DNA of 5,029 nucleotides from a candidate division Zixibacteria bacterium SM23_81. GTDB lineage: Bacteria > SM23-81. The notes below the pieces were generated by a model. That model ran no database searches, was not told the DNA's origin, and was given only the letters and a program-made list of their open reading frames with translations. The translations under genes and the position numbers were made by a program. Shown in pieces: positions 1,437 through 4,857 of this stretch (position 1 is the first letter of the stretch; each line of letters opens with the position of its first letter). The DNA lies in assembly GCA_001304015.1 (NCBI GenBank), contig LJUY01000098.1, positions 1-5,029 on the forward strand. Direction: 5' to 3'.

Positions 1437-1546
1437 GTTTGATCCGACTCAGGAGACGTTCTCAGAAGTCATTGGAAAATTGGGATGTTAAGAAGGCGAA
1501 TATTTTTTGTTACGATGTGAACGCGATCAGAGGCGACGAAAAGAAC

Positions 1547-1629
1547 GTCATTTTGACCCGACGCACCTGTCAAAATGGCAGAAACATGGAGATGCCAGGT
1601 CGTTTTGACAAAAGGACTGTCAAAATGGC
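1547..1629. promoter_or_regulatory. Four near-palindromic boxes, candidate activator (enhancer) sites for the sigma-54 promoter
   Basis: Four 11-bp boxes share the core GTCA-AAA-TGAC: GTCATTTTGAC (1547-1557, a perfect GTCA-N3-TGAC palindrome), GTCAAAATGGC (1569-1579), GTCGTTTTGAC (1599-1609) and GTCAAAATGGC (1619-1629). They alternate in orientation. Start-to-start spacings are 22, 30 and 20 bp, close to two, three and two helical turns, so they face roughly one side of the DNA. Their centres lie about 142 to 214 bp upstream of the predicted start, the usual range for sigma-54 enhancers. The protein that binds them is not in the window. Confidence 0.65.
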
Positions 1630-1790: not shown

Positions 1791-1819
1791 AAAAAAACGT
1801 CCTCTTGGAACTGAGGACG
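1791..1819 (-). terminator. Intrinsic terminator of the ligase-SDR operon
   Basis: On the minus strand CGTCCTC (1819-1813) pairs with GAGGACG (1804-1798) across an 8-base loop and is followed directly by seven T (1797-1791). It lies about 75 bases past the SDR stop codon. This is a textbook Rho-independent terminator; it separates the lipid operon from the hsp20 control region and supports a bacterial origin. Confidence 0.9.
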
Positions 1820-1894
1820 CTACAGGTATCCTTTTCCGTTATGTTTTTGACAAACCCTTGACTATGGACCGCGATAACAGAGGCAAAAGGCTAT

Positions 1895-2992
1895 CTAGCC
1901 GTCGACATGTTCCATCATGTACTCGGCCATTCTGCCGAAGTAACTGCTGACCTTGGGAACTTCCAGTCCTGTGTTTTCTAAAATATCAAGGGTGTTGGAA
2001 TTGTCAAATTTCAGTTGGCTCGTGAGATATGGCAGGTAAATGTTCAACTCATCGATCATGTCGCGCTCTTCGTCGGAAAGACTTTCCTGGGCTTGGTTTA
2101 CATAAGCCATGAATTCCTCGGGCGCTACGATGCGGAACTTCTTCTTGCCAAAGTAATGGCTGGTCAACTCTCCGATTTCCTCTAGGGTGATCAGATTGTT
2201 CAGCCCGGCGCTCAGATGAAAGCACTTGGCTGCGCTGGCTCTCTCTTGGGAGATGAGATAGGTGGCATCGGCCATGTAGTCGACCGGCACGAGATCCAGA
2301 AGGCATGAGGGATTTCCCGGAAGCATCTGTAACCGTCCCAGCAAGTACATTCTCAGCACTCGATAAAAGGCGCTGTGGCTGGAGACACGACCCGTCTTCG
2401 AATCGCAGATCACGATGCTGGGGCGAAAGATGGTCACCGGTAGCTCCGACCAACTTCCCCGCACAAGCTTCTCCGCTTCCAGTTTGCTCTGCTCATAGGT
2501 GTTGTTGTGCTCCTGGCCTTCATCGAGCTCATCTTCTTTGATAATGCCTCTCCTTCTGCCGGCCACATAGGCGGTGCCGATGTAGTCGATTTTCTTCAGC
2601 TCCTTGCACTCTCTCGCCAGGGCCAGGATGTTCTCTGTGCCTTTTACGTTGATCTGGCGTGCCTTTTCGAGTTCCAGGTCAAACCGTGCGGCCGCAGCGC
2701 AGTGGATGATATGGGAGATGTTCTCTGAGAGCTGTTTGTAATCTGAATCTTTCAATCCAAATCCGTCCAAAGAAACATCCCCCTCGACCACCTCTATTCT
2801 CCGAGTGAAATGGGTCATATCGGCATGTGGATAGAGCCCCACAAGCATCTGTTTTATTCTCTCCTGAGGGCTTAGCTCATGTTTTTGTCTGGCCAAGAGA
2901 TGAAACCTGACGTCAGAGCTGTCCATCCATTTCCGCAACAGACTGCGGCCGATAAATCCTGTGACTCCTGTGAGAAACACGTGCGATGTCAT
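1895..2992 (-). CDS. Extended SDR, thioester/fatty-acyl-CoA reductase-like (NAD_binding_4 type)
   Basis: A 365-residue NAD(P)-dependent oxidoreductase, probably cytosolic. The N-terminal Rossmann fold shows TGVTGFIG (8-15, GxxGxxG), a GD pair at 71-72 after strand beta-3, HCAA at 97-100, GTAYVAG at 139-145 with Thr140 in the catalytic Ser/Thr position, and YEQSK (Tyr166, Lys170) as the active-site YxxxK. FRPSIVI (189-195) and LVPVDYMADA (234-243) are typical of the male-sterility/thioester reductase branch, which reduces acyl-CoA or carrier-bound acyl thioesters to aldehyde or alcohol. It is shorter than the roughly 500-660-residue bacterial FARs and has no second reductase domain, so aldehyde formation or another substrate is possible. 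Its ATG overlaps the ligase stop (ATGA), and a weak GGGGGA lies five bases upstream, so translation is probably coupled. The fold is certain; the substrate is inferred. Confidence 0.85.
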   Translation of the reverse strand: MTSHVFLTGVTGFIGRSLLRKWMDSSDVRFHLLARQKHELSPQERIKQMLVGLYPHADMTHFTRRIEVVEGDVSLDGFGLKDSDYKQLSENISHIIHCAAAARFDLELEKARQINVKGTENILALARECKELKKIDYIGTAYVAGRRRGIIKEDELDEGQEHNNTYEQSKLEAEKLVRGSWSELPVTIFRPSIVICDSKTGRVSSHSAFYRVLRMYLLGRLQMLPGNPSCLLDLVPVDYMADATYLISQERASAAKCFHLSAGLNNLITLEEIGELTSHYFGKKKFRIVAPEEFMAYVNQAQESLSDEERDMIDELNIYLPYLTSQLKFDNSNTLDILENTGLEVPKVSSYFGRMAEYMMEHVDG

Positions 2993-4857
2993 CGTGATCC
3001 CCCAGCAGAACCAGACTCGATGTGTTGGTACATGGAGTCAATTTCTCTTCGATATCGCTCCATGATTTTCCCTCTGCGAAGTTTGAGCGTTGGCGTCAAC
3101 AGATAATTATCGACGGTAAAGCCTTCTGGCAGCATCGTGAATGCTTTGACCCGGGCATAGCTGGGCAGCTCTGCGGTGGTCCTCTCGAGCTCTCTGGAGA
3201 TAAGCTGTTCGATGGCCTCGTGCTCTAGCAGATCCGCGTAATCGGCCACCGGGATGTTCAATTCCTGGGCGTACTTCTCGATGGCATCTCTCGCCGGCAC
3301 GATGAGGGCGGTGATGCATTTTCGGCCATCGCCATACAGCACAGCCTGCTCGATATAACCGCTTCTTACAATCATGGACTCTATGGGCACTGGCGCAATA
3401 TTCTTGCCGTAGGAGGTGACGATGAGCTCTTTTATCCTCCCGGTGATAATCAGGTTTCCGGATGCGTCGAATCGACCCTGATCGCCGGTGTGGAACCATC
3501 CTTCCTGGTCGATCGCATCCGCTGTGTCCTCAGGTTTGTTGAAATAACCTCTCATGACATTGGGACCCCTGACCAGGATTTCATCGTTTTCGCCGATGGT
3601 CACCTCAATACCATCGAGAGGCTTCCCCACGGTCGCCAAGCGATTATCCTCCACAGCGCAACAGCAAACGACTGGTGCTGTTTCCGTAAGACCGTACCCT
3701 TCAACGATGTTGAACCCCAGAACGTAGAGAGTCTTGGCGATCCTTCGATCGAGGGCTGCGCCTCCAGACACCAGTAGCCGTAAGCGACCTCCGGCGATCT
3801 TCCTGAATTTCGAGGCCACCACCTCGTCGTAGAAAGAACGTTTTAGGCGCAGAGCAAGGGGTCTCTTCAGGTTCTTGTATTTGCGGTTCGCATATTGGTT
3901 CAGAGTCCGGATAGCTCCGAAGACAAGCCGCCTGCGAATCAGGGAGCTCTCCAGAACCCTCTTTTCGACAGCCTGGTATACCTTCTCGATGATCCTGGGG
4001 ACCGCGATGAGGATGGTGGGCTGAATCGTTTGCACATCTTCCACAATCGTGGTCATATCTTTGGCATAGGCGATCCGACCACCGGCGAAGAGAAAGGTGT
4101 AGTACCCACAGGTTCTTTCAAACATATGACAAAGTGGAAGATAGGATAAGGTGACATCTTCGGATGAGATCTGAAACCTTCTTATGGCAGAAAACGCGTT
4201 GGAGACGATATTCTCATGGGAGAGAACAGCGCCTTTTGGCTCACCGGTGGTGCCAGAGGTGTAGACGATCGTGGCGGGATCATCCCGCGTGATCTGGGCA
4301 AGGTTATCAAAAAAACCCTGGTCAATCGGTTTTTCTATATCGCCCTTCATAGCGGAGAAGCGCAGGAAATCCCTTTGGGCATCAAGTCCACTTGGATCAA
4401 AGACCACCGTGTGTGCAAGGCCTGGGATTTCTTCTCTGATCGTATCGATGACGGCGAACGGTGCGGCATTCTCGACGAAAATCAGCTTGGCTCCCGAATC
4501 ATTCAAGATCAGCGAGACCGATGAGGCCGGCAGCGTTCGATAGATGGGCACCACGATGCCGCCCAACTTCAAAATGGCCAGGTCTGAGATGGCCCATTCG
4601 GGCCTGTTGTTGGAGAAAATGCCCACCCGGTCGCCTTTTTCAATGCCTAAATTTACCAGAGACGCCGCGACCCCGGTTACTGATTCGCTGAGCTCACTAT
4701 AGGTAATACCCTCATATTCATTATGAGTGTTCTTAAACATCAAGGCCACTTTACCGGAATGTAAAGCGGCCGCCTGGCGAAAAGAATCGTATATCGTCTG
4801 GGAAATATGTTCTTTCCCGGCGATGCTCTCTGGCTTCTTCATCTCACCGCCAACCAC
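2989..4857 (-). CDS. Long-chain fatty acid--CoA ligase (AMP-forming, FAA1-type)
   Basis: A 622-residue ANL-superfamily enzyme that activates a fatty acid with ATP and transfers it to CoA. Motifs in order: phosphate loop YTSGTTGEPKG (199-209) followed by LSHENI; LSYLPLCHMFER (237-248), typical of long-chain acyl-CoA synthetases; VSGGAALD (363-370); GYGLTET (387-393) with the Mg/ATP glutamate; GWFHTGD (453-459) with the ribose-binding aspartate; GRIKELIV (473-480), the hinge. LTPTLKLRR (587-595) marks the C-terminal domain, with Lys592 the likely adenylation lysine. Length and this C-terminus fit the FAA1 class. It is first in the operon and shares ATGA with the SDR. The start is uncertain: 4857 is a GTG 10-12 bases after AGGTGGGG, while an ATG five codons later (4842) lacks a well-spaced site. 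Chain-length preference cannot be read from sequence. Confidence 0.92.
   Translation of the reverse strand: MVGGEMKKPESIAGKEHISQTIYDSFRQAAALHSGKVALMFKNTHNEYEGITYSELSESVTGVAASLVNLGIEKGDRVGIFSNNRPEWAISDLAILKLGGIVVPIYRTLPASSVSLILNDSGAKLIFVENAAPFAVIDTIREEIPGLAHTVVFDPSGLDAQRDFLRFSAMKGDIEKPIDQGFFDNLAQITRDDPATIVYTSGTTGEPKGAVLSHENIVSNAFSAIRRFQISSEDVTLSYLPLCHMFERTCGYYTFLFAGGRIAYAKDMTTIVEDVQTIQPTILIAVPRIIEKVYQAVEKRVLESSLIRRRLVFGAIRTLNQYANRKYKNLKRPLALRLKRSFYDEVVASKFRKIAGGRLRLLVSGGAALDRRIAKTLYVLGFNIVEGYGLTETAPVVCCCAVEDNRLATVGKPLDGIEVTIGENDEILVRGPNVMRGYFNKPEDTADAIDQEGWFHTGDQGRFDASGNLIITGRIKELIVTSYGKNIAPVPIESMIVRSGYIEQAVLYGDGRKCITALIVPARDAIEKYAQELNIPVADYADLLEHEAIEQLISRELERTTAELPSYARVKAFTMLPEGFTVDNYLLTPTLKLRRGKIMERYRREIDSMYQHIESGSAGGSR

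Follow-up and report, generated by a model that had tools for sequence, protein, structure and literature searches.

Four 11-bp dyads upstream of an hsp20–hsp20 operon act, in our high-confidence reading, as an enhancer of the operon's σ54 promoter. From sequence comparison across genomes it is probable, beyond this, that the boxes are bound by a σ54-dependent activator (EBP) and belong to a heat-shock regulon present in many phyla, with the ERTLYRK family as the most likely source of the activator. The window, that is, the whole stretch of DNA analysed, is the entire contig C89 (5,029 bases) of a Zixibacteria assembly (G000; 3.07 Mb, 99 contigs, 92.6% complete). A first-pass annotation had proposed a σ54 enhancer geometry and a link to stress genes, and both proposals held: the boxes span the region from 110 to 193 bp upstream of the hsp20 promoter, and similar boxes recur at chaperone and protease genes.

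The box array and its promoter

The array (1547–1629; Table 1) follows the pattern GYCA-N3-TGRC, with three exact boxes and one that carries a single mismatch. Read on the hsp20 strand from distal to proximal, the boxes are GCCATTTTGAC, GTCAAAACGAC, GCCATTTTGAC and GTCAAAATGAC, at steps of 20, 30 and 22 bp. None of 5,000 dinucleotide shuffles of positions 1361–1900 had four sites inside 90 bp or three exact sites.

Table 1 Features of the window around the hsp20 promoter.
Feature	Positions	Strand	Details
hsp20 gene 2	383–850	minus	155 aa; Pfam HSP20
hsp20 gene 1	910–1356	minus	148 aa; first gene after the σ54 promoter
σ54 (−24/−12) promoter	1422–1436	minus	TGGCATGACCCTTGC; matches TGGCAY-N5-TTGC; kept in sister genus as TGGCACGACAGTTGC
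Enhancer–promoter spacer	1437–1546		110 bp (109 bp in sister genus); 57% A+T; presumably looped
Box 1, proximal	1547–1557	minus	GTCAAAATGAC on hsp20 strand, GTCATTTTGAC on plus strand; exact; kept in sister genus
Box 2	1569–1579	minus	GCCATTTTGAC on hsp20 strand, GTCAAAATGGC on plus strand; exact; kept in sister genus
Box 3	1599–1609	minus	GTCAAAACGAC on hsp20 strand, GTCGTTTTGAC on plus strand; one mismatch; kept in sister genus
Box 4, distal	1619–1629	minus	GCCATTTTGAC on hsp20 strand, GTCAAAATGGC on plus strand; exact; kept in sister genus

The first-pass annotation had described four GTCA-N3-TGAC boxes of alternating orientation, spaced near whole helical turns and lying 140–215 bp from the promoter. 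The four boxes and their steps of 22, 30 and 20 bp agree with the coordinates, but the strict GTCA-N3-TGAC core is present in box 1 only, and the family is better described as GYCA-N3-TGRC. The steps amount to roughly two, three and two turns, with deviations of +34, −51 and −34 degrees at 10.5 bp per turn, so the phasing holds approximately but is up to 51 degrees off. Orientation alternates in the A/T-rich centre of the boxes, as it does in the sister genus, but not in the boxes as a whole, whose dyad symmetry is nearly perfect. The distance of 140–215 bp is correct only when counted from the transcription start, not from the promoter.

In the whole genome, strict GTCANWWTGAC was not clearly enriched (16 matches compared with 9 for the reversed pattern), because a single box holds too little information, and a plasmid search gave no match. 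The σ54 promoter pattern had 40 matches in this genome, the hsp20 promoter among them, compared with 8 for the reversed pattern (5-fold), and no σ70-type promoter was found in positions 1350–1900. Surveying this genome by pattern searches and short stretches, we found a box together with a σ54 promoter in the window only; 30 other σ54-like sites had no exact box.

The closest relative in our set, a Candidatus Zixiibacteriota metagenome genome from a sister genus of the same family (L058, equal to G001:C81), carries the array GCCATTTTGGC, GTCAAAATGGC, GCCATATTGGC and GTCAAAATGGC with the same steps of 20, 30 and 22 bp, 109 bp from its own σ54 promoter. The two genomes match over 84 bp of array without an indel, and identity is 38/44 (86%) within the boxes compared with 22/40 (55%) between them (Fisher 0.0015), which at the level of sequence marks the array as a footprint with fixed spacing.

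Several other features of this genome were recorded alongside the array. Within hsp20 gene 2, a unit of about 21 bp occurs twice in tandem and in frame at 546–588 (protein sequence EENCHFKEENCH); the paralogue lacks this duplication. Two further minus-strand genes, one resembling long-chain acyl-CoA synthetases (2989–4857; AMP-binding) and one resembling reductases (1895–2992; NAD_binding_4, 'male sterility'), overlap by 4 bp, and the pair (1895–4857) resembles a carboxylic acid reductase divided over two proteins. A terminator-like hairpin with a T-run (1796–1821, minus strand) lies between the reductase-like gene and the hsp20 promoter region, and an Rfam scan of the window found no RNA. A second hsp20–hsp20 pair, with 91% and 78% identity to hsp20 gene 1 of the window, heads a dnaK–hsp20–grpE–dnaJ operon at the very start of contig C37 (L198 1–5148, G000:C37); the promoter of that operon is absent from the assembly.

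Recurrence at heat-shock promoters

A box followed by a σ54 promoter at a gap of 70–100 bp had 41 matches in 290 genomes, compared with 2 for the reversed pattern; at a gap of 101–131 bp in 386 genomes there were 44 matches, the window and the sister genus included, again compared with 2. The excess owed to the box itself is less than 20-fold: reversal destroys the σ54 site of the control as well, and in this genome σ54 sites by themselves outnumber their reversed pattern 5-fold. The genes downstream provide the stronger test. DnaK, GroES/EL, ClpB, Hsp20, Lon or DegP was encoded downstream of box and σ54 promoter in 25 of the 60 regions tested (13/30 in the first search and 12/30 in the second), whereas none of the 37 box-less σ54-like sites had such a gene behind it (Fisher 5e-7, relatedness uncorrected). 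A scan for boxes upstream of σ54 promoters of chaperone or protease genes, as suggested by the first-pass annotation, thus finds such recurrence across genomes. The events are not all independent, because two promoters are common to both searches (L242/L342 and L245/L346) and some genomes come from one family.

Box centres consisting of A/T only were found in 17 of the 25 heat-shock matches compared with 10 of the 35 others, and one genome of the same phylum (G002) has a box, a σ54 promoter and hsp20 (L357). Pairs of neighbouring boxes alone occurred in 44 of 290 genomes. Many of these pairs had GC-rich centres and stood without a σ54 promoter, and pairs are informative only when a promoter accompanies them. 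Upstream of rpoN itself, one genome (L233) has a box-like site and a σ54-like promoter, which may be due to chance because the box centre is GC-rich. Overall, there is good comparative evidence for a predicted σ54-dependent heat-shock regulon that shares the enhancer type of the array.

The ERTLYRK family and other candidate binders

In the sister genus, a σ54 activator gene (L058:787–2319) adjoins the array, in the order activator, boxes, σ54 promoter, hsp20, hsp20, dnaK, grpE; the first-pass annotation had suggested looking for an EBP gene near the boxes. Its product (P0001) comprises a receiver, an AAA+ domain with GAFTGA and a Fis-type helix-turn-helix (PF00158, 6.6e-72; HTH_8, 4.1e-16). 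Relatives of this protein form one clade (support 97/92), nearly all of them ending in an ERTLYRK-type recognition helix, and the clade is separate on the tree from E. coli NorR and from nine other σ54 activators of the window's genome. Many members have an ATPase and a DNA-binding domain without a sensor domain. One sub-clade of 26 rows (support 100/98) is mostly 370–410 aa in length and begins at or near the ATPase domain.

Boxes and this family tend to occur together. Across 74 hsp20 loci (the re-oriented loci L058–L137 only, with L030–L057 left out), an exact box lay upstream of hsp20 in 11/20 loci with the family present compared with 4/54 with it absent (Fisher 3e-5), and a σ54 promoter in 12/20 compared with 8/54 (Fisher 2.5e-4), both with relatedness uncorrected. 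Among 290 genomes, an ERTLYRK profile match was found in 7 of the 20 with box, σ54 promoter and heat-shock gene compared with 32 of the 270 others (Fisher 0.01, hand-counted, relatedness uncorrected). About a dozen genomes with all three elements score too low for the activator profile. Among them, G115 and G252 encode proteins of the same pattern with a long linker, which the ERTLYRK profile misses. Both genomes have two different σ54 activators of about 550 aa in tandem (L363 395–3733 in G115; L372 768–4124 in G252) and boxes at hsp20, clpB or lon.

Full-protein and C-terminal profile searches did not find an ERTLYRK activator in this incomplete assembly. Only 32 bp of contig C37 precede its hsp20–hsp20–dnaK–hsp20–grpE–dnaJ genes, and in the sister genus this place is taken by the activator; an assembly gap is therefore the simplest explanation for the missing gene, likely if unproven. 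Judged by neighbourhood and co-occurrence, the binder of the array is likely to come from the ERTLYRK family of σ54 activators, although not exclusively.

The boxes could also be enhancer sites of a dyad type common to several unrelated EBPs, with an EBP already seen in the genome, rather than an ERTLYRK protein, as the binder. The dyad equals that of NorR, the genome has 11 EBPs, and some genomes with box, σ54 promoter and heat-shock gene have no ERTLYRK profile match. However, 9 of the 11 EBPs were placed on the tree, all fall outside the ERTLYRK clade and their recognition helices differ; the gene adjoining the boxes in the sister genus belongs to the ERTLYRK family, and the two co-occur. 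We consider this alternative unlikely.

The likeness to NorR concerns the motif itself, which the first-pass annotation had not recognised. NorR binds three tandem GT-N7-AC sites (PMC1274295), and of the E. coli norV sites GTCAATTTGAC, GTCATATCGAC and GTCATTTTGAC, the last is letter-identical to box 1 at 1547. On the plus strand, boxes 1 and 3 fit GT...AC, and boxes 2 and 4 are GT-N7-GC. Both the norVW enhancer and the array are clusters of dyads that precede a σ54 promoter, the GT-N7-AC sites of norVW following one another at about 20–24 bp; the norVW enhancer differs in that it controls nitric-oxide reduction and has three sites, and its activator has a GAF sensor domain. That the array is a nitric-oxide-responsive enhancer of the NorR type placed before hsp20 genes is highly improbable, and we reject it. 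The NCBIfam NorR model reported none of ten EBPs scanned from this incomplete assembly (the 11th, L022, was left out) and scored the candidate activator at 326, with a cut-off of 476. The recognition helices of E. coli NorR and the ERTLYRK candidate are different (DVANLHRLAKRLGL and GERTLYRKIKEYGL). The genes behind the array's promoter are hsp20 rather than genes for nitric-oxide detoxification, and those downstream across phyla encode chaperones and proteases.

A dyad by itself is no proof of an activator, and the boxes might instead serve a repressor, or some other factor that is not an EBP, as operators beside an incidental σ54-like promoter. This, too, we reject as having very little probability, given the position of the boxes well upstream of the promoter at a distance kept in the sister genus, and the occurrence of box and σ54 site together far above control. 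A chance cluster, for which we counted nothing in favour, is practically dismissed by the shuffles and by the spacing conserved in the sister genus.

Related systems, proposed mechanism and significance

Activation of heat-shock genes by σ54 systems has precedents. HsfA of Myxococcus xanthus is an NtrC-like response regulator that activates the heat-shock gene lonD (PMC9109919); compared by description only, HsfA/HsfB resemble our proposal in this respect and differ in that genes for secondary metabolites and pili are likewise reported among the targets. In Planctomycetota and Bacteroidota, the σ54 regulons predicted by Carrera-Reyna et al. (2025) are enriched for the GroEL, GroES, GrpE, DnaJ, DnaK and IbpA families; the passages found assign neither an enhancer motif nor an activator to the heat-shock genes (PMC12316311). 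The closest motif in a σ54 study of D. vulgaris is that of the flagellar EBP DVU2894 / FlrA, yGTCA-N6-TGACr, which shares the GTCA/TGAC half-sites of a σ54 activator with the boxes; its centre has six bases rather than three, and its regulon is flagellar (PMC4641369). Thus, the shape of the motif (NorR, GT-N7-AC) was already known, and σ54 promoters at heat-shock genes had been predicted in bulk. In the open-licence literature, we found no account of a GYCA-N3-TGRC enhancer or of an ERTLYRK activator family, and earlier work may exist. The first-pass suggestion of an undescribed regulon therefore stands for the enhancer and activator within that literature, but not for heat-shock control by σ54 promoters, which had been predicted, or by HsfA, which was known.

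In the σ54 systems that have been studied, DNA looping brings an activator hexamer into contact with σ54 polymerase, and the promoter is opened at the expense of ATP. By analogy, dimers of a σ54-dependent activator would bind the four boxes and assemble into a hexamer, which would reach σ54 polymerase by looping over the 110-bp spacer. Under protein-folding stress, the activator would spend ATP to open the promoter of the hsp20–hsp20 operon, and the regulon would comprise hsp20, dnaK, groESL, clpB, lon and degP in many phyla. Many ERTLYRK members have no sensor domain, so that the stress signal probably reaches them in trans; such members must be controlled by their abundance or by a partner. 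Titration of the activator by chaperones is our guess. A fuller version of the model has a single family, ERTLYRK, recognising GYCA-N3-TGRC and governing the σ54 heat-shock regulon of many phyla, its often sensor-less members perhaps kept inactive by free chaperones and freed when misfolded protein occupies these. We put this version forward tentatively, at slightly less than even chances.

Teaching on heat-shock control draws mainly on a few lineages, with RpoH, HrcA, HspR and CtsR as the regulators. The recurrent box arrays at heat-shock σ54 promoters point to a largely undescribed heat-shock switch. If the proposal is true, this would be an activating circuit distinct from control by those four regulators. 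A shared enhancer and activator would account for chaperone control in many little-studied phyla and would supply a mechanism for the σ54 promoters predicted at heat-shock genes, and both the motif and the protein family are directly testable in cultivable relatives.
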